Below are positions 15,774 to 47,909 of a DNA stretch of 64,000 nucleotides, piece by piece (within the stretch, counting starts at the first letter, position 1; each line of letters opens with the position of its first letter). Made by a program: the position numbers and the translations under genes. The stretch spans positions 10,591,001-10,655,000 of the forward strand of contig NC_079885.1 in NCBI RefSeq assembly GCF_029227915.1, written 5' to 3'. The notes under the pieces are model-generated. The model worked only from the letters and a program-made list of their open reading frames with translations, did no database searches and had not been told where the DNA came from. This DNA comes from Hydractinia symbiolongicarpus (taxonomy: Eukaryota > Cnidaria > Hydrozoa > Anthoathecata > Hydractiniidae).

Positions 15774-18700
15774 TTAAAAATAACTCTTTAATTCTCCTGT
15801 TCTTCTTACGTCACATGTCCAGCAGTGAAAACTTCCTCCTAGGACATTAGCATGCTCCATCTTTACTTTAATGCAGGTGAAACCAAGCGATTCAAACATC
15901 TGTAAAAGAAGTAGTGCTAAATCATTCGCTTACTCATTTGCAATTTCTTTACACATTATGAAATTGGTACATTAACTGGTACATTTTCTGAATTTCGTGG
16001 GTTTTTGCAAATTTATAATAATTTTATAATACATTCAGTATTTTAAACTTAAACACTGGTTTGGGTATTGAAACAAGGCAGTTATGTTGAATTCTTTTCA
16101 GTAATGAATTTTTCTAAGAACAAACACTAAAATTTGCGTTCTAATTGGTGAAAAGTTTAGAACGACGCATTTTGCCAATAAAAATTAAAAAATGTTTAGC
16201 TACTTCACGCCAAAGAAACTTTTTCGAAAGAAAATCAAAACAAACAAAACTACGCACACATAGATATAATTCGCCCGGCGAATTCACCGTCAAATTCGCT
16301 TGGTGGAAACCCACCCCCTTTAGGTTTACCTATCCTTATGGGAAATAGATAAGTTGACTGCAATTTCAGCAGTCTTCTTTATTTTTCTAAGTAAAATCCC
16401 TTTGAAACTCAACAACTCATGATCATTTTGCGATAATTACTAAAACATAAAGATAAATAGAAATAAGTAGAAATAAGTAGAAATAAGTAGAAATAAGTAG
16501 AAATAAAAGAAATAAAAGAAATAAATAGAAATAAATAGAAATAAATAGAAATAAATAGAAATAAATAGAAATAAATAGAAATAAATAGAAATAAATAGAA
16601 ATAAATAGAAATAAATAGAAATAAATAGAAATAAATAGAAATAAATAGAAATAAATAGAAATAAATAGAAATAAATAGAAAAAAATAGAAAAAAATAGAA
16701 ATAAATAGAAATAAATAGACATAAATAGACATAAATAGACATAAATAGACATAAATAGACATAAATAGACATAAATAGACATAAATAGAAATGAATACAA
16801 ATTAAAAGTAAAGAGAAGTAAAGAGAAGTAAAGAGTATATTTGCATCATTCCAAAAATAAAATCATTTCTGGAAGTACTGTTGAAAGTTCGGATTGCTCC
16901 CTTCCCAGTGTACTTACGTGTTTTGAGCAAACAAGAGATATGCTTGAAGGTGGTTTAAAATAATTCGAAATTAAAGAGATTAATTTAGAAAAAAAGCTCA
17001 CGAGGCCATTTTGGTTAGGAAATGATGGTTTGAGGTTTGAAGGTTTCCTCTTCTCTTCTAAATAATTTGTATCTATAGGGATATTTATTTTCTGTATGTT
17101 TTAAAATGCTAAGATGAATATACTTTTGAATATACATCACACTTTTTAGCCATGTAGAAATCTTTACAAACTAATTTAAAGATTTTAGCTAAAAACGTAG
17201 ATTTGGAGGCAGTATCCTGCTGAAGCCAGCTAGCTAGGTATAGCTACTCTTATTTATTCCTATTGTTTTTTTTTTAATTTTTTATTCATTTTGTTATGTT
17301 ATTATTCGGGCCACATGGTTCAACGTATATACTAAGCGCTGAACCTGCTGTCACGTTTTAAACATTCACGGAAAATTATTTCGCAAAATAAATAAAATTG
17401 GCTGTTTGTAAACTGTAATTATTTTTTTTTAGGTTAATTTGTTAGAAAAAACAAAAACATGTTACACTCCAAATACTATTCACACGCTTTACTCGATTTT
17501 CGACATACTGTATACCTGTTTGAAATTGCTCCACCTTGATGTGCTACCCAGTTTACGGCTTTATGAAGCGCTTTATTGCTAAACGCACATTGTGGCGTTA
17601 AACACTGGGTCACACAGTTACTTGTGGTTTGATCCGGCGTTAATAACCGCCATATTTTGTGCATTCAAAATGACTGCGCGCAGCTTTAATCCGGTTTCCT
17701 TGCAGAGTAGATAATATGCAGACGACGACCCCGTGGTTTCTTCCACAGGATAATGACTATATTATAACATAATAATGACGATATAATAATACCCAACTTT
17801 CCGTCTGTCAGGCAAAGATAGTAATGGAAAGTAGTGGCAGGCCAATTCCTGTGGATTTCCACGAGCTTATGACTAGTTAGGATAGAAAACATACTTTTTG
17901 TATTGGTAATTCAGAACTCTCCACGATTACTCTTTTGTCATCCAACAGTAATACATTTATACTTAACCAACTGGTACTCATCCGCAAAACATGCGAAGCA
18001 GGCTTAGCAGGTCTAGGTGCTTCCACTATTTTCCAGCCTGCTTTCTGAAAAATATCTAGCTCATTGCACGGTCTGTTAGGGTTAACGATAAGTAAGCCTT
18101 CTCTTACTGCGGTAATTGATACGTCAATATGCATGCTATTGGGAGGCGAGAAGGTCAAAACATGAAGGTTATACTTTTCACCAAGATGGCGCCTCATCCA
18201 TTCAGTACCCATCATATTTGTCACCTGAAACAATCATGTAATAAAAAGTAATTAAACCAGCTACTGCGGACTCCCGCTGGAAGGTTAACGCAGGCGTATG
18301 TAATGGAGTAGTTCTGAATGGTTGCAATTATAAGGAAAGAATTTGCAGTTACAAAAGTAAATTTGAATAGCATAAAGACCAATAAAAACAATTTATTTTT
18401 TATATAGTTCAAATTTTAGTTTCAAAACAAAATTCAGCTTCAGTTGAAACTGATTACAAATAAATTAAAATCTAGCTTCAAAAAAATTCAAATCACGAAA
18501 AAGTGGCATACGGAAAAGGTGAGACCTAAGATTGGGAGTGCAGGACAACTTTATTATGGAAAATATTTCGAAGACCAGAAGTATTATCTCGGCATGTGAG
18601 AAAGGTGAGATTTAGGGTTTTTACTCTTCCTAACCTAATTGTAGAAAGAGACCCCAAATTCTGGAACATTTTACCACTCATTTCGATTTAATAACCCCCT

Positions 18701-27049: not shown

Positions 27050-27144
<95 letters not shown>
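27049..27144. repeat. (AAT)n microsatellite
   Basis: About 32 uninterrupted AAT triplets. The Ile-, Asn- and Tyr-rich open frames across it are artefacts. Confidence 0.97.
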
Positions 27145-27146
<2 letters not shown>

Positions 27147-27201
27147 CATAGGAGATTATTTTTGTTCCGCTACAGCATTCGTTTGTATTACTTAGCAGAA
27201 C

Positions 27202-30200
27202 ATGGCTAACAGGCAACTGCGAAGTGAAGTTTTGAAACGCGCCCTGAAGGCATGCATCGTCCAACCGGTAATAAGAAAATATCAGGTAGTAGCCGTTCGT
27301 GCGATGTGGGGAAGTGATGTTGATGCCCGCGAGGTCATTTGGGGCAAGAGAATGCAGATGGAGAACATATTGCTTAGCAACGAACAAGTATCCTGTTTTT
27401 TTTCTTGTATTACCTATATGGCCAGACCTCGTAAGAGAAAGTCGATGAGGAATGAAGGGGAGGAAGAAGAAGGAGCCGACTCTAGCAGTGAAGGTGATAA
27501 CAGAAACGGCGCAAATGCGCCTGAAACATTTCCTGGCATTTCTTTCTGGATCGCGTGCGACTTGCCAAACTGTACCTTAAGTCAATTTGAAACAAATTTT
27601 TCGAAGTCTTTTATGCAAGCCGGATTGAATTTAACAACGTGCAATGCTATACAGACAAGAGGTAAATACTTGAACCTTTTAGTACTTGAAATACTGTCAA
27701 TGTTTTTCGAATATTTTACGCCACATTTGATATTTGTAGGCAAAACCAGTGCATTGCAAGCATTCTCAGGATCGTTATACCAAGTCTTGAAAGACCACAA
27801 TAGGGAAGAAGCAAAACGGATAGTTGAGATATCCCATCGCACAATGATTAGGAGTGCAGCTAGAGATGAAGGTGTTCAACTTGACCACGTTGCTGTAATG
27901 GAAAGCGAACAGTACTCGATGAAACCCTGTCAGTTAATTCTAACAAAAAATATTGATAAAGAGATATATCAAGATGTAATTCGTGGTTTATCCGAAATCA
28001 GATTTACATCGCTTGATTTAAAAGTAATTGATAAATCGGAAGGTAAGTTGCCACGAACAAATTTACTTACTTCTCCAATAATAAGACTAAGTTTTTTGTA
28101 GAAGTTAAAACATGTTTTTACATTGTTACACGCATAGGCACAGAAGTAACTATTCCCGTTAAGCCAACTAACAAACTTTGTCAATCCGTGGATATAGTTC
28201 GAAGGATGATGGAGAGGAATAGCTTTGGACTGTGCAATGGAGGTGTATATAAAAAAATAGGAGAAAGCAGATACACATACGTTTACTGTTGTTCGGTGAA
28301 AAGCTATCTCTATCGCTCGTTGAAAAACAAAGCAATCGCCAACGAAATTACGCCAAATTTACGAGAGTTGGTATTTTTGCTGTCGGACGGCGAGTGTCAA
28401 ATAATTGATCAAATAACTCTGGATTACAATTACATTGAATGCTTGCCAAATAGAGTTTGTTATAACATCGCCAAAAAATGTTTCGATGTCAAGCCAAATT
28501 TAAAGGGATCACCCCGAGCATTCGTACGGTACTTTCATCGTGAGGGAAAAAATCCCGAACCAAAGCCATTTATAGAAGGTAATTGTTTTTACTTTTCTTT
28601 TAACGCGTTAAGAAAATGTGTTTTTTTTCTTTTAACGCGTTGTAACATATCAAGGTGGTAGTTGTAACGTGTTGTAACGTATTGTAACTTGTTGTAACGC
28701 ATTGTCAGTAAAAAAATGTTGGCTCTTTTTCTTTTAACACGTTGTAACATATCAAGGTGGCAGTTGTAACGTGATGTAACGTATTGTAACTTTTTGTAAC
28801 GCATTGTCAGTGAAGAAAATGTTTTTTTTTATCTTTCAACGCGTTGTAACATATCAAGGTAGTAGTTGTAACGTGTTGTAACGTATTGTAACTTGTTGTA
28901 ACGCATTGTCAGTGAAGAAAATGTTTTTTTTTATCTTTTAACGCGTTGTAACATATCAAGGTGGTAGTTGTAACGTGTTGTAACGTATTGTAACTTGTTG
29001 TAACGCATTGTCAGTGAAGAAAATGTGTTTTTTTTCTTTTAACGCGTTGTAACATATCAAGGTGGTAGTTGTAACGTGTTGTAACGTATTGTAACTTGTT
29101 GTAACGCATTGTCAGTAAAAAAATGTTGGCTCTTTTTCTTTTAACACGTTGTAACATACGTTGTAACATATCAAGGTGGTAGTTGTAACGTGTTGTAACG
29201 TATTGTAACTTGTTGTAACGCATTGTCAGTGAAGAAAATGTTTTTTTTATCTTTTAACGCGTTGTAACATATCAAGGTGGTAGTTGTAACGTGTTGTAAC
29301 GTATTGTAACTTGTTGTAACGCATTGTCAGTGAAGAAAATGTTGGCTCTTTTTCTTTTAACACGTTGTAACGTATTGTAACTTGTTGTAACGCATTGTCA
29401 GTGAAGAAAATGTTTTTTTTATCTTTTAACGCGTTGTAACATATCAAGGTGGTAGTTGTAACGTGTTGTAACGTATTGTAACTTGTTGTAACGCATTGTC
29501 AGTGAAGAAAATGTTGGCTCTTTTTCTTTTAACACGTTGTAACATACGTTGTAACATATCAAGGTGGTAGTTGTAACGTGTTGTAACGTATTGTAACTTG
29601 TTGTAACGTAGTTCTAAAAAAGGTGCACTGAACTACATTTGTAGGTGTCGAAAATAGCTTCCCAGATAGAAATGTGCGGTTGCGTTTTTATCAAAAATGG
29701 TACCAAATTTTGCTCGCCGGTCAGTATCCCATGAAAGAAAAGAAATTGTTGCTGGTAGGTCCTCCTGATAGTGGAAAGACGAGTTGGTTTGCTCCATTTC
29801 AAGGTAATTAAATAAAGTTCGTGAAAACTTCTGACTTTTAGACGGCACTTACTGACATACATTTGTCCTTTTAGGCATTATTCCAGAAATGTACATTGCT
29901 GGCGTGGTTCGGGATGGTCGATTCTCAGGCCACCTGATAAATAGAAATACACAAGTCGTATTTATGGATGAATGGACTAGCGACAGTCTATGTTGTGAAG
30001 ATGCAAAAAGAATATTGCAAGGTAAGTCGATGTCGATGCAGTACATGAACATTTACTTTGAATAAAATGCGGCAATGTGCAGATGGGATACCACTTTCTC
30101 TTATAGGTTTGGTTATGATCCCGCAAAAACACAAAGAACCGGCCCGTTTTCAATACAATTCGGGTTTTTTTATAACAACTAATATAATGCCGGACTTCGG

Positions 30201-31271
30201 AAATGGTGTAGATGGTGAGGCTATCCTGCGTCGTCTTGAAGTTTTCGAAACTAAGACACTTCGAGTGAAGGACAATAGCATAACAAGTAAGTATCTCATG
30301 AGAATAAATGATAACAATGGTGTAAATCAATATGCATAAAAATAAGTAATGACTTTTTTCCTGTAGAGTGGATGAGAATGCACTGCATGGAAATATTTGT
30401 GTACGTTGCCAGCCAGTTGAAAGACATCTCGCTTTTCACCAGCGAAACCAATGTTGCGAAGAAAAATCAAGTAGGCGCTGTGTACAACGACGTTGATTGC
30501 GATCCTTCGGTCTTCTTGGACGAAGAGCAAACATTGGAAGCATCTAGCAGTGGTCTAAGCACACGAGTTCAGATTGAGAATGCAGTTCCGCAAGAGGCTA
30601 TCGACTATGCCATTATTGCGACCGACGATAGGGATGGCATTTTGTACCATGCGCTTAACTTTGATCATGAACTGTTTGACATAGAAAACAAGTTACACAG
30701 TGCTGAATATATGCGCAAAATGTACGAGATAGCCGCTGGGGCATGGGAGGAAATCTGCCCATTAATTAATAACGATGAGACCTTGGTAGCATTTAAACGC
30801 CGTAAAAGGATCAACTGGCAGGGTAGTGACACGTTCTACGACACGTGGTTGCTTGCTACAAACTCCTGCCGCGATTGCTTCCCGACGAAAGAAATGAAGG
30901 AGCTCTACCCTGATTGGGCACAACTAATTGAGCAAGACGAAGACGAAGGAGAAGGTAGTAGCCACGACCGCGAAGAGAACGAGGAAGAAGAAGAGGAAAC
31001 AAACGAAGAGGAGGAAGGTCATAGGGAAGAAGAAGAAACAGAAGAACATGAAATCAATGCTCAGTCGACAAAACCTGTTTCCACTGTTAAGCAAGAATAT
31101 ATGCCGTTTTGTCCAGCAAATAACAGTACTGCTTTTATAGACCTCGTGTCAGATGATGAAAGTGTTCCTGAAATTTCTTCAGTAAAATTAGAGCTATTTT
31201 CCGCAGATAATTCAACCACTTCTCTCGATTGTGATGTTATCTGCATTAGTTCGGACGAAGAAGACAATTAA
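27202..31271 (+). CDS. SF3 helicase (parvovirus NS1 / Rep-like), seven exons, mobile-element encoded
   Basis: Exons: 27202-27661, 27740-28042, 28138-28578, 29645-29803, 29875-30021, 30107-30286, 30367-31271. All introns are GT-AG. The frame closes to 864 residues; a second Met at 27418 (MARPRKRKS) would give 792 and may be the true start. SF3 motifs lie in order: Walker A GPPDSGKT (440-447), Walker B VVFMDEW (482-488), motif C GFFITTN (523-529), arginine pair ILRR (543-546). SF3 helicases unwind DNA at replication origins of small DNA viruses and plasmids, so a replication role is inferred. No HUH nickase motif is seen in the N-terminal half. The C-terminus is very acidic and ends with two SUMO-interaction-like motifs, IDLVSDDE and VICISSDEED. 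Intron 3 (1066 bp) holds a TTGTAAC repeat array; the other introns are 71-95 bp. No function beyond helicase can be assigned. Confidence 0.85.
28629..29611 (+). repeat. Iteron-like array 1 (TTGTAAC), inside helicase intron 3
   Basis: About ten units of roughly 101 bp. A typical unit has one TTGTAAC, a 15 bp gap (ATATCAAGGTGGTAG), then four TTGTAAC heptamers each followed by 3 bp (GTG, GTA, TTG, GCA), so successive copies sit 10 bp apart. The linker is CATTGTCAGTGAAGAAAATG plus a T-rich run. One unit (about 29353) lacks the gap segment, and two (about 29137 and 29525) have an extra heptamer. The pitch places the sites on one face of the helix, as for a protein-binding array. Confidence 0.9.
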
Positions 31272-31366
31272 AAAAAAACTTTTTTTGCGTTTTCCTTCCC
31301 TCATATCCCACCACATACTCCTTTTCTAAAGTGACATGCGAAAAGCGGTTTTCTCTACAGAAATAG

Positions 31367-32550
31367 GTTACAAAGCGTTACAACGTGTTACAAGGCGTTA
31401 CAATCAGCATGTCCATGCGTTACAAGGCGTTACAAGAATCACTCTAGCCATTTCCAAAAATTTCACAGTCATTTTTTCATGGAAATAGGTTACAAAGCGT
31501 TACAACGTGTTACAAGGCGTTACAATCAGCATGTCCATGCGTTACAAGGCGTTACAAGAATCACTCTAGCCATTTCCAAAAATTTCACAGTCATTTTTTC
31601 ATGGAAATAGGTTACAAAGCGTTACAACGTGTTACAAGGCGTTACAATCAGCATGTCCATGCGTTACAAGGCGTTACAAAATCACTCTAGCCATTTCCAA
31701 AAATTTCACAGTCATTTTTTCATGGAAATAGGTTACAAAGCGTTACAACGTGTTACAAGGCGTTACAATCTGCATGTCCATGCGTTACAAGGCGTTACAA
31801 GAATCACTCTAGCCATTTCCAAAAATTTCACAGTCATTTTTTCATGGAAATAGGTTACAAAGCGTTACAACGTGTTACAAGGCGTTACAATCTGCATGTA
31901 CATGCGTTACAAGGCGTTACAAGAATCACTCTAGCCATTTCCAAAAATTTCACAGTCATTTTTTCATGGAAATAGGTTACAAAGCGTTACAACGTGTTAC
32001 AAGGCGTTACAATCAGCATGTCCATGCGTTACAAGGCGTTACAAGAATCACTTTAGTCATTTCCAAAAATTTCACAGTCATTTTTTCATGGAAATAGGTT
32101 ACAAAGCGTTACAACGTGTTACAAGGCGTTACAATCTGCATGTCCATGCGTTACAAGGCGTTACAAGAATCACTCTAGCCATTTCCAAAAATTTCACAGT
32201 CATTTTTTCATGGAAATAGGTTACAAAGCGTTACAACGTGTTACAAGGCGTTACAATCAGCATGTCCATGCGTTACAAGGCGTTACAAGAATCACTCTAG
32301 CCATTTCCAAAAATTTCACAGTCATTTTTTCATGGGGAAATAGGTTACAAAGCGTTACAACGTGTTACAAGGCGTTACAATCTGCATGTCCATGCGTTAC
32401 AAGGCGTTACAAGAATCACTCTAGCCATTTCCAAAAATTTCACAGTCATTTTTTCATGGAAATAGGTTACAAAGCGTTACAACGTGTTACAAGGCGTTAC
32501 AATCAGCATGTCCATGCGTTACAAGGCGTTACAAGAATCACTTTAGTCAT
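31367..32550 (-). repeat. Iteron-like array 2 (GTTACAA on +, TTGTAAC on -)
   Basis: Ten units of about 121 bp. Each has four GTTACAA heptamers on a 10 bp pitch (spacers AGC, CGT, GGC), a 15 bp gap (TCAGCATGTCCATGC), two more heptamers 10 bp apart, then a linker with CCATTTCCAAAAATTTCAC. The heptamer is the reverse complement of that in array 1, and the gap length is the same although its sequence is unrelated. The array lies between the helicase gene and the small ORF. Long open frames through it are repeat artefacts. Confidence 0.9.
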
Positions 32551-32676
32551 TTTAAGTAGGAATGGGGATGAGTGTGCGTTTAATGAATGTCGCATTTGCG
32601 CCATTATTTGCATACTTAAAGGCTTACAGCGTGTAAGTTTCACCTAAATTGTGTGGACGCTTATGTGTACGCTAAA

Positions 32677-33015
32677 ATGGTGAATGAAGAGGCAGTTGTG
32701 GTAAACGTTTCGGATAACGAATGCTCAGCATCTAAGGAGGTTTTACCGTTCTCACATTCCTGTTCAACGCTGACAATTTCCGTGGAAAAAAATATTGTTT
32801 GCCTATCAGATGATGAAGTTTTCCTAACTATACCGATAGCGGCTTTGAAGGGAGAACCAAGTTTTTGCGAACCGCCTTCACACACGAGGGTACTTAATAC
32901 ACCAGATTATTGGCCAAATCGTAAGAGGAAAAAAAGCCTTTATGTGTACGCCGGTTTTGACTGTAACAAAGTTAAAAGACTATTTGAATATTCTGGTTTT
33001 CAAAAATCTTTGTAA
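32677..33015 (+). CDS. Small protein with two SUMO-interaction-like motifs
   Basis: The ATG at 32677 gives 112 residues; a 5' exon cannot be excluded. No family is recognised. It contains AVVVNVSDNE near the start and NIVCLSDDE in the middle. Both are hydrophobic tetrads followed by acidic residues, the layout of SUMO-interaction motifs, and both resemble the two motifs at the helicase C-terminus. Similar motifs suggest a shared partner or a common origin (inference). It lies directly after array 2 and ends 38 bp from the stop of the convergent recombinase gene. It may also be an exon of a longer transcript. Confidence 0.55.
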   Translation: MVNEEAVVVNVSDNECSASKEVLPFSHSCSTLTISVEKNIVCLSDDEVFLTIPIAALKGEPSFCEPPSHTRVLNTPDYWPNRKRKKSLYVYAGFDCNKVKRLFEYSGFQKSL

Positions 33016-33030
33016 ATTTACAAAGTTATT

Positions 33031-33036
33031 TTTATT
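33031..33036 (-). terminator. Polyadenylation signal AATAAA of the recombinase-like gene
   Basis: TTTATT on the + strand reads AATAAA on the - strand, 18 bp past the stop codon at 33054-33056. It lies in the 38 bp gap between the convergent ORFs, so the two transcripts probably overlap at their 3' ends. Confidence 0.5.
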
Positions 33037-33053
33037 ATAAATACAATTTAAAC

Positions 33054-34706
33054 TTATATAAATTTTTTTGTCTTCGCTCTAACCGCCAATGTACTAGCTT
33101 TACGGCTACAATGAAAGGAGTAGTTAGGATCTGCGAGAATGGAAGTCCATTTTGCATTGCCATATTTTTGTAGCCCAGCTTGTAAAAACTTGTCCTCCAT
33201 GGCACTAAAACTAACTTTTTTCTGTCTCGTTTGAACAGGTGTTTCGTCTTCCAAAGTACTTCCAGACGTTTTTACATTTTTGGTGTTACTATTGATTTCG
33301 CTTACAGTTAAAGTACACGTTGTTTGATCTCGTAATTTATCCATACATAACCTGGCTTTTGCAGCTATATTGCGCGATTCAGTCTTCTGGTAATGAACTT
33401 TAGCTACCTGCGACGTGTGTTTTTGATCTTGAGAAAGAATTGCTTGTTCTTTTGTTTCTAAGTGTGCAACACTTTCGGTTTCGATGATTTGCCTATATCG
33501 TGTATATAAATCCTTTATATACTTACCAATTGCTTGATAAACAATTCTACCGAATACGTCCGAAATACGCGTCAACTGCTTACCATTTCGACACACTAGT
33601 AGATAATCGTTGGTGGGGTTCAATCTTCGTCGTACATTGTCAATGTATTCGTTTATTAGTGTGAGTACATCTATGGAAAAATAAAGAGAGTCAAATCCGT
33701 ATTTCTCCGCAGTTTTAAAGACATTCTGATCTATAAAACCATCCTCTTTCACGCCTTTAATCATTGTTACTGTAAGAGTTTGATACGTCATGGGTCTTGA
33801 AGCCTTCACCATTAAAAATAATACAGCTACTATGAAGGAAGTCGAAAATGATAAATCGTGTGCTGCGACACATGCACTTGCGTTTTTAGCATTTAACACA
33901 ATTTGTTTATATTTTTCACTATGGTATGGTATCACCTTTTGTAAATCATATAGTGTCGCCCAACAGTCTATACTGTTTAGATATTCAACACTTAAGATAC
34001 ACTTCCATTCAGCTTTCATTTTACGAAGGAGGAATTTCTTAACACGGTGCAAATAAATCTCTGCAGCAACAAATACCGACAAATTTTTTTCAGTCGTACC
34101 TGTGCTTCGTCTGTAATCAAGCATGTGCCCAATAGCATTCATGTAGCCAATTATTCCTGAGAAGCCAACCTTCCATTGGTCTCTCAAAAAATCTACGAAA
34201 TCAGAAAGCATATTAATAGAGCCAACACAGTAGTCGATAACAGGGAATGGTACTTCCCATACCGAAGGAGAATCCTCGCAGCAATATTTGGCATACTTTA
34301 AAACTTTACAAGTTATTTGATCGGCCTGAGAATGATCTTTACCACCACCACCTGGACTTTTTAACCATGTCCTAAATGCAACTGCCAAATTACATGTTTT
34401 AGCAAAAGACGGCATTGAAAATGTGGAGGCGCGCTTTCTTTGGGGATCTTTTATGCGATTTCTCGTACTGAAGTGGGGAAGTACTTCGTCGATATTCGGT
34501 CTTTTATCGAAATAATAAAACCATCCATGACGGTTATAGACATGTTTTCTACACCCTCTTTTACTTCCATACGACTCGCTGTCACAATCAGCCACAGGAC
34601 AACAAAAGCGGTTATCTTTATCAGGCATTAACTTAAGCCTTTTCGATCTCATTGAGGCTCCCAATGCCTCTTTCCACGCAGGCTTTTGCAAGACTCGTTT
34701 TGTCAT
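33054..34706 (-). CDS. Tyrosine-recombinase-like protein with C2H2 finger and Myb domain
   Basis: 550 residues from the ATG at 34706; the frame stays open upstream to a possible splice acceptor (TTTGTTTCTAG), so a 5' exon may exist. A C2H2 finger has Cys36, Cys41, His55 and His60. A large alpha-rich middle leads to a recombinase-like core: Arg304 in ASRPMTYQTL (box I-like), an RYRQ block near 403-406, then KHTSQVAKVHYQK with His430 and Tyr439 as likely box II residues. This arrangement recalls Crypton-type tyrosine recombinases, which cut and rejoin DNA through a Tyr. Residues about 500-548 look like a Myb/SANT domain (EDKFLQAGLQKYGNAKW then TLAVRAKTKK), close in style to telomere-repeat binding Mybs. 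It is convergent with the small ORF and presumably part of the same element. Box II lacks a textbook HxxR, so the assignment is probable, not certain. Confidence 0.7.
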   Translation of the reverse strand: MTKRVLQKPAWKEALGASMRSKRLKLMPDKDNRFCCPVADCDSESYGSKRGCRKHVYNRHGWFYYFDKRPNIDEVLPHFSTRNRIKDPQRKRASTFSMPSFAKTCNLAVAFRTWLKSPGGGGKDHSQADQITCKVLKYAKYCCEDSPSVWEVPFPVIDYCVGSINMLSDFVDFLRDQWKVGFSGIIGYMNAIGHMLDYRRSTGTTEKNLSVFVAAEIYLHRVKKFLLRKMKAEWKCILSVEYLNSIDCWATLYDLQKVIPYHSEKYKQIVLNAKNASACVAAHDLSFSTSFIVAVLFLMVKASRPMTYQTLTVTMIKGVKEDGFIDQNVFKTAEKYGFDSLYFSIDVLTLINEYIDNVRRRLNPTNDYLLVCRNGKQLTRISDVFGRIVYQAIGKYIKDLYTRYRQIIETESVAHLETKEQAILSQDQKHTSQVAKVHYQKTESRNIAAKARLCMDKLRDQTTCTLTVSEINSNTKNVKTSGSTLEDETPVQTRQKKVSFSAMEDKFLQAGLQKYGNAKWTSILADPNYSFHCSRKASTLAVRAKTKKFI

Positions 34707-34843
34707 TCCGATTTCTTTAAAGTTCTCTAGAAACAAAATTTATAGAAAGTTTATAACAATATTAGTTTTTAACAAAGCATAGAAAGTAGGATAAAAAAAA
34801 GAATCCTATTTACTATAAATTTAAAGTTTGAACAACTTACCTT

Positions 34844-34868
34844 ATACTTTACTTCGTATACAAAGTAT
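34844..34868. other. Candidate recombination site: ATACTTT-11 bp-AAAGTAT
   Basis: Perfect 7 bp inverted repeats flank an 11 bp core (ACTTCGTATAC), 138 bp upstream of the recombinase-like ATG. Tyrosine recombinases often use such inverted arms around a short core. The role is inferred; an AT-rich palindrome this short can occur by chance. Confidence 0.3.
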
Positions 34869-35920
34869 TAGTTGAGAAACTTCTCATTAAAACAATTCCT
34901 TTTTATAATGAAGGACGCTCTCCATAGCAGAGTTAAGGTAGCAGCGAAAACGGAATTATTTCAAGTGGCACAATATAAATTAGACTGCAGAGTATTCATA
35001 ATTAAATAACTATTCCTCAAGATAATCATTTCGCATATATTATCGTTATGATATATAAAAGAATTCAACGGAACAAATAGAGTGGAACGATATATACCGT
35101 CACATAAATTCCATCAAATTCCCTATGGGAACGACACGTTCTTGTCTTGTGAGTAACAATAGAACAATACATTCCGCTTTTATAACAATGTTTTAATAAG
35201 TTGTTAAAGAACACCAAGTTCCTTAAAAATGGTTCTTTTTTAAAAAATTGGAACATGTAAAGTATTTAATGTGTTTAGGGTGTAAGATAATCGCACATAG
35301 AATCACGGACCATTATAATTTCATACGCTATATAATAATAATAATAATAATAATAATGTTCAGCGCGAATAGCTACACCCACCCAAACGAATATAATTAA
35401 TTCTCGTACTATTTGAGAGCGGAATATCTGACCACGCTGGTTTTGTGCTTTTTAGTTGATTTTAATTCCGGACAGCATCTCTGCGACTAAGATTTCGTAT
35501 TAGAGAAACTGAATTTCATATACTCGAAGAAAGCGTAGCTAACTAGGCTACTTTAACCACAAAACATGCTTTATAAACATAGTAAGTGCTTGTGTAGAAT
35601 AATTATGAATATCGAATATTTGTTGTTTTCAGTGTCAATATGATATCTAAGAAGAATTAAGATTTTTTGGTCCTCATTGCGCATAAACTTTCTCCCCTCC
35701 ATAAGCTCGACTTTCATGTAGTTCTCTAAAGTCGAAAATCAACAGCTCGTTTTGTAGCCCCATTAATATAACCGACTTTAGGTTTTCTACCTAGGTATCA
35801 ATGACAGGTTTTTTTTGGATTTTCTTCTATTTTCTTAACTCTTTTTTAGTTAGGAATTTTCAAAAGAACAAGTTTTCAAATCTTACCTTTATTTACGATT
35901 ATTGACCATATACAAACATA
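34869..35920. other. AT-rich DNA right of the mobile element
   Basis: No gene. A short (AAT)8 run lies near 35335-35357. About 35565-35780 resembles 37140-37365 (GTAAGTGCTT..TAGAATAA, then CTAAAGTCGAAAA-CAGCAGCT), a local duplication or repeat. Confidence 0.45.
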
Positions 35921-42900: not shown

Positions 42901-45900
42901 CATTTGCTTAATCTCAGTGTCATTTTGGTGCACTAAAAAGCAAAATATTAAAGGAAGTAAACGTGAATTTTTTTCATAATCTTATTATGTAAATGAGAAA
43001 GAACTAAAATGAGGGTAAAGTAGTAGAACGAGATACACAACGTTTATAAGCATTGTTGACGTAAATGAAGAGGCTAGAAAATAGCAATGACAACAACGTC
43101 GGCAATTGCGACACTAGAGTGAGGATGGTGCCTGCGACATTAGCATGACCTTGGAGGAAAGAATACTTATTCTTTCCTCCAAGGCATGACTAAGTTTATC
43201 AGTAATGAGATGTGCGCGCTGTACTGAGAAAAATATTATAGCCCTGTCATCTGGGTGCTATAGCAACTTTGATTCATCTGTTCTCTTCTGAAGTTGAGTA
43301 CTTACAGAGAATACAAGTCCAGGTAATGGTGTGTTTCTTTTTTTATGAACCATAGCAAGTAATCCAGGCATATGACCTTCTCTTGCTGAAGCAAACACAA
43401 GTCTAAGTAGAAAAGTTTATAAGTAATTACACATGATTAACATGCACACTATGTAGAATTTCACTTGCGCAATAGGGTAAGGTCTTGTTGAGATTAAAAA
43501 AATGCACTGTATGTCAATTTTAGTTCCTGGATTACAAATAAATCAACCGCTTGATAGTTTATGCTGATTCTTGTTGATTCTTGTTACACGTTTCCCGAAT
43601 TGCATGTTTTTAAAAATTTTAGAATTTTGAAGTTGTGACTTGAAGATTATATCCAGCATCATAGAAATAGCGTGTGTATAAATCTTTAACTTAATCTGAC
43701 ATGTTATAATGCTATTTTGGTGGTGTTAATGTTACGGTCAAGTCTTCTTAACTTTCGACTTGTACTAATAAGCGTTGGTTTCAAGCAGAGCTCAATTAGT
43801 ACAAAATTATAAAAACTTTATCAGTGTCAGGTGAGGATTTCAAAAATCACATTCATGATTCGGGAAAGGTGTATTCAAGGAAAATTAATGGTATGAAATT
43901 ACGTATTATTATAAATTGTAATAAAAACCGAAATTAGAAACATTTCCGATTCAGATATACTAGTTGTTACACTGTGGATAATCCACGGAAATTATGTCGC
44001 ATTTGCTAGTGCATATATTTCGTGTATCACGCAAACACAGACAAAATATCAACAGAGAGATAAGTGGAAAAATCAACGGGAATTTGCCCGCAAAAAAACT
44101 AAAAAAGGAAACAGAGCAGCCGCTAATTATCCACTTTGTTCTGACAGATAAAATATATCGCATTTGCTTTTTCAAATATCCGTAAAACGACATTTTTTTG
44201 CACAAACAGACAAACTATGGCTATTAAAAATATATTAAAAATAGTAACAGTAAATCTATAATTCTATGTAAGGTCAGGTGGATCATGTCTTCGCAATAAG
44301 AAATTAAAAGCAGATCTAGATATACCTTCCTCCCGTAAATGCTGCGCCATTTGCAGCACCAAAAGTGGAACATGCCACCAATACCGGTATAATCCACGCC
44401 ATTACTCCATACATTCTGTTAGCTACCGTCTAAAGAAATATCCCTTCATAACTATAACACTTTTCAAAGTATGTTAAAGTCGGCAATACTTTTCATCGCC
44501 TTAACAATTTATCGATTGTTTTAGTGAGATAAAATAAATTTAAGTTTACACTATAACGGGGCCTAAATTGCCCCGGACTGAAATTTCCTTCTATACAAAT
44601 TTGGATCACAAAGCAGAAAGGATAAATTCACACTATAGTGTTTGGCATGACTCTGACGGGGTTTGAACCCAAGACTTCCCGCGCTGGAAGCAACGTTCTA
44701 CCATAAGGCTACCTGTCGGTTAAATTTATGAAAGGAGGGCATGGTGTATGAATTCTTGTTATGCACCAAGCAACCACAAACAATACAATTAAATTGTTTG
44801 ACATTTTAAGCGGTATTTTAGTGAATACAACTTAAAAAAACTCACCACTGCTACAGCAGACGAATTCGAAACCTCGGCAGCCGTCAAAACCGTCAAGTAT
44901 GCAATATTCATTAACACATAACAGGACGTGACCAACGGAATACCAATCATAATAGAAAGTGGTAAATCTCTAATAGGATTGGCTAATTCTTCAGTGACGT
45001 AGTTTAAGTTATTCCATCCATCGTAGGCCCATAATCCACCAAAAAAAGCATATCCGATGTCTGATATTCTTGTCGTTGTTCCATCAAATGCGTTCTTGAA
45101 GTTGTCGTTATAACCTAAATTTACGTACTATATGAACTACATTGACTCTACTGGGGGCTACAAACTCGTCTCTAGAGACAATAAGAGTACTGAAAACTAG
45201 GTTGGCATTCTTAGGTATTAATTTGACTGCAATGTCTTCTCATCATCAACTTCGTTCACAGGAAATTTTGCCTCATGATGAACATTGCTCTTTTAAAAAC
45301 ATGCTCTTTAAATCTAATGTGCTTTCTTTAAAAAAAGTTAGACTTTAAAAAGCGTGATGCTGTCTTGCTCATGGATCTAAGCAAGACTTTTGACTGTATT
45401 AACAACAAGCTGCTTATTGCTAAGCTTCATGCTTATAGATTTTCTTCTAGTGCATCATCTTTTATTTGGAGCTATTTAAAGCAGCGCTTTCAGAGAGTAG
45501 ATGTTGATGGGGGTTTTGGTTGTTGGAAGGAAATTTTTTCTGGTATACCACAGGGGTCAATTTTGAGGCCGTTACTGATTAGCATATTTTTAAATGATTT
45601 TCTTTTTCAATATGACGTGAATATGCCGCCCTGCTCTGATATTCTAGTGTGTAACTATGCTGACGATAATACTTTTTGTGCATCAGCCGAAACCTTTCAC
45701 GAAGTAAAATATATGTTAGAACAATTTTTTAGGTCAGCAGCTTTATGGTTTTCCGATAATGGCTTGCAATTAAACGCAAGCAAATGCGATTTTAAAGTAT
45801 TCGGAAAGCCAGAAAGTCCACAAATCCGGCATTTAAAATTAAATGGAGCAATTTTATCTGCATCCAAATGTGTAAAGCTTCTTGGTATTAAATTTGACAG

Positions 45901-47909
45901 TCAACTTAATTTTGCAGATCATATAAACACACTGAGCAAAAGAGCTAGCTGTGAATCTAATGCCCTGAAGAGAATTTCCTGGATTATTGATAATACACAG
46001 AAACGTTTATTATATGCAACATTCATAGCATCTGAGTTCAATTACTGTCCTTTAGTCTGGGGATTTAATAGCAGGAAATCTATAGAAAAGGTGGATAGAG
46101 TTTTAAAAAGGGCAAGGTCTCAGTCTAAAGTGGAATCCATTTCTTCTACGAAAAGAATTCATATGCAACATTGTAGACAATTATTAAAACAGGTCTACAA
46201 GACGAAATGGAAATTGAATCCTTCCTACATGGAAGGTGTGTTTCAGTTTAGAAATAATACTGGATACAATTTAAGGTCATCAAATGTTTTAGTTAGATCT
46301 AGAGTACAATCTTCAAAATATGGGCTGCAAACATTTGGATATCAAATCTGAAGAGTCTTTGGTTAAATTTTGTAGACTTATAGGCGAATTTTCGTCTTTC
46401 CAATGCAAATGTCGGATCTGTGCAGAATACATAATTAATTTAGGATTTATTTAATATATATTTATTTTTATTTTTATTTTATATATTTATTTTTATTTTA
46501 TTATTTAATATATTTATTTATTTTTTTATTAGTATATTTTATTAGTATATTTTAAATCTTTTGTACATTATCGACTATAAATAAAATAATCTATTCTAGT
46601 CTATGTGGCCTCTACATTATAATGATTTAAAGAAAAACAGACCCTGGGAGCAAGAATGTCTTCGGGTTTCTAGTATTTCGAAATACGTCTGTTCATAGCA
46701 TGCAAAAAAATGATTGTAGTAAACAATAAAGTCAAGTGCCATGAAACCTTTCCGGATTATTGTAAAAATTTTTAATAACAGGAGAGCTAGACTGTAGAGC
46801 CCTTTGCTGAGCTCTCATGTGAGAACGTACTGTCAAGCCGCGAAATGTAAAGTGATTTCCAACGGTGAATAATAAGTTAGTTAAAACGTAGACATCGTGT
46901 CACAAGCTTAATTTTTTATTCACTCGGCAAACAAGCATGTCGTTTCTATGCTATCTTCGTAATGCTTTGGCAAATATTCAGGTATGAATGCTATCTGTGG
47001 TATCTGCTAAGGACTTTTAATATATCGAAGTATTACCTTGTCCCAGTCTTGCCAAGCCAGTAGCAATAATAATAACTATGGCACCAAGTTTAGCAACGGT
47101 GAAAACGATTTGAACATTAGTCGCCCATCTTGTGCTTGCGCAGTTCACGAATACAATAAGTCCTGTCAAAAATCGTGACAAAAAAACATGTCAAAGTTGT
47201 CACCTATATATTAAGACATTATTTCAACAGTGCAGCTAATAATATCAACATCAACAATGATTTTGCTGGTATTGTGTATTAAGTTGTTATTAACACCAAC
47301 CTCGCCAATCAAAATACCGCATATTAATACAAACCCAATTACAAAGATCTGTAAAAATTACTGGTATAACTCACCTAGAAATAAAGTCGCTAGTAATTTT
47401 GATGTCGCAATTTTGTCTTCGTTAACACAATCTGATCCATAGAATGGTTCAACAATATAATCCCCAGATGCCACAACAATGGCTGCAACACCCGCGGGTT
47501 TTAACAAAAGATTTGAAGTGTAGATGTATAAAAACGCAGGTAAGTCTCCAAAGGCCTCCTTCAGGTAGCTGTACTCTCCTCCGGAGATGGGAATCATCAA
47601 ACCCAACTCTATATAACACAATGCACCACACATAGCTAATGCACCACAGCCCGCCCATACTACCAATGACATACCAACACTGCCAGAGTTGCTGGATACA
47701 GAACTAGCTGATGCAAATATGCCGGAACCGATCATAGTTCCGACTATTAAAGAAATACCTCCTGTTAATCCAACAGTTCGTTTAACTTTTATATCAGATT
47801 TTGAAGTATCTGTTTTTTGTTGCTGTCGGTTGCCGTCATTTTCGTCGTCAATATAAGCTAAATTGTCGAGATTTATCTCGTGTGGTACTTCAAACTTCTT
47901 TTTAACCAT
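39997..47909 (-). CDS. SLC7-family heteromeric amino-acid transporter light chain
   Basis: Eight exons in transcript order: 47909-47375, 47162-47037, 45114-44846, 44429-44326, 43402-43306, 42372-42217, 40360-40183, 40070-39997. They give 512 residues, all introns GT-AG, phases consistent. Members exchange neutral or cationic amino acids across the plasma membrane as 12-helix LeuT-fold proteins, disulphide-linked to an SLC3 heavy chain. Seen here: GTMIGSGIF (58-65) in helix 1, Cys161 in the loop after helix 3 where light chains bond to SLC3, [14 protein letters not shown] (251-264) in helix 6, and [18 protein letters not shown] in the next exon. The start ATG at 47909 precedes a 40-residue polar cytosolic N-terminus. 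LAT versus y+LAT or b0,+AT type cannot be settled here, so no symbol is given. Introns 2 and 3 carry a LINE and a SINE-like insert. A decayed copy lies at 24.4-36 kb. Confidence 0.93.
40570..40960. repeat. Two or three CCACGGG-family repeat copies, SLC7 intron 6
   Basis: Repeated blocks with CTGTCGGTGG..., GCATTTCGTGCGTTTCGCTACTGCGGTACCAT, ACAGACGGAATACGGCTATTATTAAAGAGACTAGTCGGTGG and CACTCCACGGGATCGCCTGTCC. The family recurs across the window. Confidence 0.55.
41050..41800. repeat. Dispersed repeat block with TGACGTCA motifs, SLC7 intron 6
   Basis: Contains GATGACGTCAT, CTGACGTCAGCAAAATTTTT, CTCTACACAATAATGGCAACG and CCACGGGCCTTATTAACTAGTCTTATATTATAATACGG. The 1.0-1.2 kb segment has the same order. 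A diverged second unit follows at about 41640-41790. Confidence 0.55.
42511..42668. mobile_element. MITE with pogo/Tigger-like terminal repeats, SLC7 intron 5
   Basis: Left end CAGTGGAATCTCTCTATCTCGAA; right end GTCGAGATAGAGAAATTCCAG, a near inverted copy. Extra inverted copies of TTCGAGATAGAGA lie inside. TIRs of this type (CAGT-GAA-CTCTCTATCTCGAA) are common in Tc1/mariner-pogo elements. No coding capacity in about 158 bp. Confidence 0.75.
43149..43184. repeat. Perfect hairpin, 17 bp stem and 2 nt loop, SLC7 intron 5
   Basis: CCTTGGAGGAAAGAATA is followed by CT and then its exact reverse complement. Possibly the centre of a decayed MITE; no RNA gene is claimed. Confidence 0.8.
43970..44235. 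repeat. CCACGGG-family repeat, SLC7 intron 4
   Basis: Starts GTTACACTGTGGATAATCCACGG and ends ACAAACAGACAAACTATGGCTATTAAAAATAT, with the internal text seen in other members (TTTCGTGTATCACGCAAACACAGAC). Two overlapping open frames on opposite strands are not genes. Confidence 0.5.
44640..44735 (-). repeat. tRNA-derived sequence (SINE head or tRNA pseudogene), SLC7 intron 3
   Basis: On the - strand, GGTAGCCTTATGGTAGAACG gives an A box and GGGTTCAAACCCC a B box, with a CTTCC/GGAAG stem between. The 7 nt anticodon loop lacks U33 and the acceptor stem does not close, so it is not a working tRNA gene. Confidence 0.65.
45125..46600 (+). mobile_element. 5'-truncated LINE, SLC7 intron 2 (antisense to the gene)
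   Basis: The frame at 45365-46351 (328 residues) opens inside a reverse transcriptase: [15 protein letters not shown] (motif A region), [12 protein letters not shown], then CNYADDNTF with the catalytic Asp pair. A C-terminal region follows, ending [11 protein letters not shown] and [11 protein letters not shown], typical of CR1/L2/Rex1-like LINEs. The endonuclease domain and the start of the RT are missing. A T-rich TTTATTTTTA tract lies at 46450-46560. The right end is estimated. The insertion lies almost against the exon 3 splice acceptor (45115-45116), and the pseudogene copy at 24.6 kb lacks it. Confidence 0.85.

Follow-up and report, generated by a model that had tools for sequence, protein, structure and literature searches.

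What are two long arrays of one heptamer, built on the same spacing plan and facing in opposite directions, doing next to a helicase gene and a recombinase gene in the marine hydroid Hydractinia symbiolongicarpus? The locus lies in a 64-kb stretch of genomic DNA that we analyzed as a whole (hereafter, the window). A preliminary description had reported two arrays on opposite strands, each of about ten units, in which TTGTAAC recurs every 10 bp except across a single 15-bp gap per unit, and counts in the window bore this out. Array 1 (28630..29607, + strand, from its first near-heptamer to the end of its last heptamer) comprises about ten tandem units of ~102 bp and 49 exact TTGTAAC, with no other copy on the + strand of the window. 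Array 2 (31360..32552, − strand) comprises ten units of ~122 bp and 60 exact TTGTAAC between 31367 and 32534; eight further − strand copies outside it are near the chance level (8–9 per strand per 64 kb under a first-order Markov model). Heptamer pairs at 10 bp number 27 in array 1 and 40 in array 2, and those at 22 bp number 9 and 10. The AT content of the spacers is 82% in array 1 and 68% in array 2, with 65% for the window.

The two arrays share one plan. Units of array 2 read H-10-H-22-H-10-H-10-H-10-H (H, heptamer; steps in bp), two heptamers before the gap and four after it, as first described. For array 1 a single heptamer before the gap had been reported, and this can be refined: in 31 of 33 gap-bearing units from three copies, the lone first heptamer is preceded at a distance of 10 bp by a near-heptamer (TTTTAAC in 30, TTTCAAC in one), giving [TTTTAAC]-10-H-22-H-10-H-10-H-10-H and thereby completing the unit, so that both arrays read 2-gap-4. 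Aligned in register, the arrays agree at 41 of 42 positions within heptamers and at 10 of 30 within the filler, the latter being about chance (binomial P 0.28), in agreement with the earlier claim of shared spacing with unrelated filler. The same comparison bears on possible base pairing between array 1 and array 2 in single-stranded DNA or RNA. They are mutually inverted and match in register, and their best complementary arms reach 33 nt at 85%, but selected pairing should include the linkers and the gap, where complementarity does not rise above chance; we rejected this candidate as very improbable.

Both arrays lie within a mobile element of ~8.2 kb (27144..35333, no strand assigned; 8190 bp in this copy), delimited by aligning it (blastn) with the C1 and C2 copies and comparing the ends, which read AACCATAGG on the left and CATACGCTATAT on the right. 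Because these ends leave the arrays ~1.5 and 2.8 kb inside the element, one of them in an intron, the suggestion that they are transposon subterminal repeats was discarded. An SF3-helicase gene, whose third intron houses array 1, is followed by array 2, then by a small ORF (32677..33015, + strand, ~112 aa) and a tyrosine recombinase (YR) gene. The small ORF has no assigned function, and the part scanned (32683–33012) gave no Pfam match. Apart from the helicase exons, the ~112-aa ORF and the YR, an inventory of ORFs of at least 90 aa listed antisense frames and read-throughs of the arrays, with no capsid-sized ORF.

The target of the element is (AAT)n. In the window it is flanked by (AAT)31 on the left (27051..27143) and (AAT)8 on the right (35334..35357), neither with an assigned strand, and at other copies the tracts run from 7 to 143 AAT. 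Such tracts house single copies of the element and are also found without it. The right flanks of three copies (L052, L055 and L056) are part of a high-copy repeat with at least 40 exact copies, and all 10 other loci of this repeat that were examined bear 3 to 18 AAT (one only 3), with the right end of the element absent from the 60 bases before the tract. Five head-to-tail junctions fuse both element ends precisely, as in a circle (CGCTATATAACC), and lack the AAT block. Since the repeat bears AAT without the element and the junctions are free of it, the tracts are unlikely to be part of the element itself. Joining of the ends in a circle or tandem would bring a noncoding region at the right end (34707..35333, no strand assigned) immediately in front of the helicase gene; this region may act as a promoter, and helicase expression might thus be limited to excised or tandem copies.

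Judged by divergence among its copies, the element family is young: the genome holds at least 20 full-length recombinase copies, and 14 of the 21 copies compared differ from another copy by 0–2 substitutions over ~2.3 kb. The helicase gene accompanies the recombinase in the element and its copies. The heptamers and their spacing are likewise kept, with exact 2-gap-4 units at 23 of 23 loci (L051–L073) and 131 such units within the parts of array 2 covered.

Genome-wide counts of exact TTGTAAC pairs, with the reversed pattern as control, showed a sharp peak at 10 bp (852+794 = 1646 pairs; control 29+30) that was absent at 9 bp (9+15 = 24; control 14+19) and at 11 bp (15+8 = 23; control 20+28). 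Pairs at 22 bp were also enriched (289+231; control 16+29). Of the two peaks that had been expected, that at 10 bp is clear and tied to the element (97 of 100 places among the matches listed fall in two element copies, the other 3 being isolated). At 22 bp, 78 of 100 places among the matches listed fall in element copies or a relic and the remaining 22 in three unrelated C1 sites, which are minisatellites bearing TTGTAAC, so this peak is not purely the element's. For the 10-bp spacing, nothing was found of what the preliminary description had named as counting against it (copies without heptamers or with random spacing, or identical arrays common far from any helicase or recombinase gene); the 22-bp minisatellites do occur elsewhere.

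These minisatellites raise the prospect that the arrays are themselves passive, a heptamer-rich unit spread by tandem duplication, with the likeness between arrays inherited or accidental. The number of gap units does vary (9, 11 and 13 in array 1 of three copies, and at least 21 gap pairs in one C2 copy among the matches listed), decayed copies are poor in heptamers (4 in L075, 8 in L076), and column variability, heptamers against filler, is weak evidence: the values for array 1 were 14 of 1120 for heptamers and 32 of 1504 for filler, a comparison not relied on because the unit-picking pattern fixed part of the gap, and that for array 2 was also set aside, its flank columns being out of register. 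Duplication alone, however, does not give 41 of 42 heptamer positions in register beside 10 of 30 filler positions, and we regard passive minisatellites as improbable. The shared plan and its presence at 23 of 23 loci are better explained by sequence-specific protein binding, in line with the original proposal of bound protein.

One candidate for the bound protein is the helicase. Its gene (27202..31271, + strand) was modeled from reading frames and GT/AG borders, with the start codon taken from the homologue P0121, and has seven coding exons (27202–27661, 27740–28042, 28138–28578, 29645–29803, 29875–30021, 30107–30286 and 30367–31271). Array 1 takes up almost all of the third intron (28579..29644, 1066 bp); the remaining ones measure 71–95 bp. 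Seven of 10 homologues match PPV_E1_C or DUF5906, two of these at the curated cut-off, and the predicted model of the Clytia homologue P0122 matches the SaPI5, AAV Rep, B19 NS1, E1 and D5 helicases. On these homologue profiles and this predicted model, we assign the gene product to the SF3 helicases, with viral replication initiators among its relatives. The N-terminal part of the Clytia model has the order strand-helix-strand-strand-helix-strand, which occurs in origin-binding domains. That the structural matches include no YR or origin-binding family is not taken as evidence.

The other candidate is the recombinase (33054..34706, − strand, 550 aa). The catalytic motif of tyrosine recombinases is R, K, R, H and Y in order, with an H-to-Y spacing of 9; here R304, K331, R405, H430 and Y439 occur in this order and at this spacing, and across 82 sequences H430 and Y439 are invariant and the other three are conserved at 90% or more. 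We identify the product as a tyrosine recombinase from these ordered residues; a Pfam scan of the window protein returned no YR match, and a single-sequence fold (mean pLDDT 36.6) was unusable. The protein also carries a C2H2 motif (C36, C41, H55 and H60) and a C-terminal TRF1-like Myb domain (best E 1.3e-5), so that the helicase and the C2H2- and Myb-bearing recombinase named at the outset are both real. If the heptamers were sites for the Myb or C2H2 domain, they would build a recombination complex or regulate the recombinase. Myb domains generally bind AAC-cored sites, lambda integrase binds 10-bp arm sites, and array 2 stops ~500 bp from the end of the recombinase gene. Against this, the recombining ends lie ~1.5 and 2.8 kb from the arrays, ~60 heptamers per array are many for such a complex, and no heptamer clusters were found near the ends with up to one mismatch. 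We consider recombinase sites unlikely.

We tentatively favor, at somewhat below even likelihood, the reading of the arrays as iteron-like protein-binding clusters that form a replication origin to which the N-terminal domain of the helicase binds, in an element that moves as a circle. The recombinase would cut the element out as a circle and insert the circle into (AAT)n tracts. The helicase N-terminal domain would contact the heptamers, and since steps of 10 and 22 bp present roughly the same side of the double helix each time, several molecules could bind next to one another. Helicase loaded at the arrays would then start replication of the circle, and with the arrays facing opposite ways, loading could be bidirectional. 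The arrays consist of direct repeats in fixed helical phase, as in iteron-type origins, and the shared plan, the 10-bp peak without neighbors at 9 or 11 bp, its retention at 23 of 23 loci, the SF3 helicase and the precise junctions all speak for an origin. Several observations speak against it: the two arrays are separated by coding sequence, not by an AT-rich opening element, and the repeats' own spacers give a mixed picture on such an element (82% AT in array 1 and 68% in array 2, with 65% for the window); the sites far outnumber the need of known origins; array 1 is intronic; and a single structural match, to AAV Rep68 (318 residues, rmsd 13.1), spans the N-terminal part of the helicase homologue. 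Four diverged relic stretches also lack an array (0 or 1 heptamer each), but all are decayed, so nothing follows from them on co-variation of site and protein.

Some of these observations would also suit arrays with no role as an origin, whose ligand would be either a host factor or a protein of the element that serves to tether the circle, to partition it or to enhance transcription; EBNA1 and papillomavirus E2 sites are precedents. The high and variable number of sites, the intronic position of array 1 and the long arrays flanking the 3′ exons of the helicase on both sides are in keeping with this. No host factor or tether can be named as a candidate, the present observations do not tell such sites from an origin, and we consider this explanation rather improbable.

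Replication of a mobile element as a free circle, from an origin of its own, is well known in bacteria, and to our knowledge it is not clearly established for capsid-less animal elements. No description of this element was found in the open-licence literature, a scope that leaves out most subscription journals. Cryptons and other eukaryotic YR DNA transposons (PMC3212892) are likewise DNA elements moved by a tyrosine recombinase; in Cryptons the YR is the sole enzyme, whereas the Hydractinia element adds an SF3 helicase and the arrays, and the main text of that paper mentions neither helicase, Hydra, Myb nor C2H2. Polinton-like viruses and virophages also combine a YR with an SF3 helicase, and a circular donor is expected for them (PMC4642659). 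Polinton-like viruses have capsid genes, whereas the ORF inventory of the Hydractinia element shows no capsid-sized ORF; the resemblance lies in the kinds of genes. The telomere-repeat tyrosine recombinases of nimaviruses share the C2H2 and YR layout and insertion into simple repeats, yet belong to large virus genomes and target (TAACC)n, and the available part of PMC10871703 mentions no Myb domain; the likeness is one of layout. In bacteria, helicase initiators are known from SaPI/P4-type satellites (PMC7145576), and the initiators of iteron plasmids bind repeated, helically phased sites (PMC4980987). These sources describe integrative elements or plasmids in which replication is started by an initiator of their own, with far fewer sites than the Hydractinia arrays have; the Hydractinia element resembles them in its predicted initiator and phased repeats. 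Papillomavirus E1, parvovirus NS1 and AAV Rep have the SF3 helicase fold predicted for the family of the Hydractinia protein. That protein differs in that its gene has several exons and belongs to a mobile element of an animal; its origin binding is a prediction.

No relatives were confirmed by protein in viral contigs. A pattern scan of such contigs picked out 36 stretches where three heptamers follow each other at 10-bp steps; 2 of the 36 have any 22-bp pair, and the stretches were judged unrelated.

It is possible, though doubtful, that the element is a capsid-less animal episome: a circle excised and integrated by a recombinase with a TRF-like Myb domain, replicated by a viral-type SF3 helicase from a pair of iteron arrays that face each other, one of them tucked into an intron, and using AAT microsatellites as safe harbours. 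If true, viral SF3 replication would be joined to YR transposition in one element, with a recombinase that chooses AAT microsatellites as its target. The host is a laboratory cnidarian, and its young element family has precise end junctions, a defined target and a short site that is open to testing.

Every one of the 49 TTGTAAC heptamers on the forward strand of the window fell within 28640–29607 (array 1), and 60 of the 68 on the reverse strand fell within 31367–32534 (array 2), against ~8–9 expected per window strand under a first-order Markov model. In both arrays the heptamers were spaced by 10-bp steps and one 22-bp step per unit, and Tandem Repeats Finder gave periods of ~102 bp for array 1 and 122 bp for array 2. 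The preliminary description of the array 1 unit as one heptamer, a 15-bp gap and four heptamers holds for exact TTGTAAC, but 31 of the 33 gap-bearing array 1 units from three copies of the element also have a near-heptamer (TTTTAAC or TTTCAAC) 10 bp ahead of their first heptamer, so that both arrays follow a plan of two heptamers, the gap and four heptamers (2-gap-4). Placed in register, the arrays agreed at 41 of 42 heptamer positions and 10 of 30 filler positions, which bears out the view that they share a spacing grammar with unrelated filler. This combination, read from sequence, argues for protein binding along one face of duplex DNA.

We counted exact TTGTAAC pairs across the whole assembly (480.9 Mb), with the reversed pattern as a control. 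The count proposed earlier yielded a sharp 10-bp peak (852 + 794 pairs versus 29 + 30 in the control), with none at 9 bp (9 + 15 versus 14 + 19) or 11 bp (15 + 8 versus 20 + 28). A 22-bp peak was also present (289 + 231 versus 16 + 29), although not all of it belonged to the element. Among the places listed, the 10-bp peak seems to belong to the element, since 97 of 100 lay inside two element copies and 3 were isolated. The 22-bp peak is only largely due to it: of 100 listed places, 78 lay within element copies or within a relic, and 22 lay at three unrelated places on contig C1. The latter are 22-bp-step repeats (TTGTAACAACTTCTGTCGCAAT and relatives) at C1:5111732–5112156, C1:11914065–11914443 and C1:15503398–15503491, apart from the listed element copies. 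Viral contigs contained 36 stretches with at least three TTGTAAC at 10-bp steps, and a 22-bp pair occurred in only 2 of these.

Comparison with copies on contigs C1 and C2 placed the element's ends at 27144 and 35333, each adjoining an AAT tract. Its helicase gene has seven coding exons on the forward strand, bordered by GT/AG; the third intron (1066 bp) is taken up almost entirely by array 1, and the remaining introns measure 71–95 bp. Since the start codon lies 58 bp from the left end, the promoter would be either external to the element or, where copies are joined in a circle or tandem, within the right-end region of the joined copy. Scanned one by one, the window helicase exons matched no Pfam family above cut-off; 7 of 10 scanned homologues gave weak PPV_E1_C or DUF5906 matches, two of them (P0138 and P0141) reaching the DUF5906 cut-off. 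A profile search of solved structures returned two rows at E 0.5–0.75 only, papillomavirus E1 among them. The structure predicted for the Clytia homologue P0122 (mean pLDDT 76.6) resembled D5-type, SaPI5, AAV Rep, B19 NS1 and papillomavirus E1 helicases, mostly over residues ~258–586. Ahead of ~258 the model has a predicted strand-helix-strand-strand-helix-strand order, and a single AAV Rep68 row spanned this N-terminal part at an rmsd of 13.1, a likeness that is suggestive only. A further ORF (~112 aa) occupies part of the stretch that separates array 2 from the recombinase gene. This ORF (32680–32820) and the helicase C-terminus (31140–31271) each contain short segments of hydrophobic and acidic residues, among them FIDLVSDDE, VICISSDEE, VVVNVSDNE and IVCLSDDE, which we take to resemble SUMO-interacting motifs. 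The reverse-strand tyrosine recombinase (YR; 550 aa) carries a C2H2 domain, YR residues and a TRF1-like Myb domain, and the main alternative to a replication role for the arrays is that the heptamers are sites for its Myb or C2H2 domain. Elsewhere in the window are a minisatellite with a 10-bp unit (ATAAATAGAA, repeated about 35 times, 16453–16802) and an open frame that by eye resembles a retrotransposon reverse transcriptase (45332–46351).

In the comparison with other copies that the preliminary description had asked for, the arrays recurred: exact 2-gap-4 units were present in 23 of 23 loci with element copies (131 in total, 2 to 9 each, in the covered part of array 2). Three copies covered completely had 9, 11 and 13 gap units in array 1, and the listing for the copy at C2:18.27 Mb includes 21 gap pairs. 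That array 1 lies in an intron and that the sites are many and vary in number leaves room for enhancer or tethering roles, or for a passive satellite. Two decayed copies were poor in heptamers (4 and 8), and four diverged relic stretches with helicase or recombinase pieces (~29–88% identity) held 0 or 1 each. Over ~2.3 kb spanning recombinase and right-end sequence in 21 copies (L066 and L068 left out), the nearest other copy was 0–2 substitutions away for 14, and 6 away for the window copy.

The assembly held at least 56 recombinase matches, among them 20 full-length at 96–100% identity, 16 of these stop-free. The right end (≤4 mismatches) was found in 26 of 30 loci with recombinase matches, representing 25 distinct places, and was absent from four, including the full-length copy L068. 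It was followed by 4 to 73 AAT at 18 places, directly by the next copy's left end at five, by an AATAAC repeat at one and by neither at one. Left ends were present in 12 of 15 stretches fetched for them and absent from 3, with 7 to 126 AAT ahead in all 12. One high-copy repeat was common to three right flanks, and because each of 10 other loci of that repeat carried a tract of 3 to 18 AAT that no element right end preceded, the (AAT)n tract is most likely the insertion target. The left joints took two forms, AAT-AACC in 8 and AATATAT-AACC in 4, so that on these sequences the exchange point is not placeable to the base. At L084, the helicase exon 1 matches of a diverged relic begin at 1234, immediately after ~43 TAA repeats (1106–1233), as if an older lineage had used the same target.

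Four copies lie head to tail on C4, and two each on C9 and C10. Their junction, CATACGCTATATAACCATAGGAG, has four exact occurrences in the assembly, all within these tandems, and a fifth junction, at L066, departs from it by a single mismatch on the right-end side. The C9 neighbours were 12 substitutions apart over ~2.3 kb, and L067, one of the two, was closer to a C5 copy (3 substitutions); judged by these differences, simple duplication in place does not explain the pair. Junctions of this kind would arise from site-specific recombination of a circle whose ends are joined, and also from integration of multimers. In the C4 tandem (C4:15230000–15264000), recombinase ends of the three copies compared differed by 0–1 substitutions, and heptamers in the covered part of array 2 numbered 59, 23, 59 and 56.

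No description of the element came up in the open-licence library searched, and the words 'Crypton' and 'microsatellite' were absent, by word search, from the main text of the Hydractinia genome paper (PMC11067881). It is a YR element, yet no plain Crypton. Some Polinton-like viruses and virophages likewise combine a YR with an SF3 helicase, as described in PMC4642659, but the element's ORF inventory includes none of capsid size; simple-repeat targeting and the C2H2-YR layout are shared with the nimavirus recombinases described in PMC10871703. Bacterial satellites carry helicase initiators, according to the account in PMC7145576, and plasmid initiators work at repeated, phased sites, according to that in PMC4980987. 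Given these parallels, and because an element that encodes an SF3 helicase and shows circle-type junctions would need a replication start, we tentatively favour the reading that the arrays may serve as the element's replication origin.
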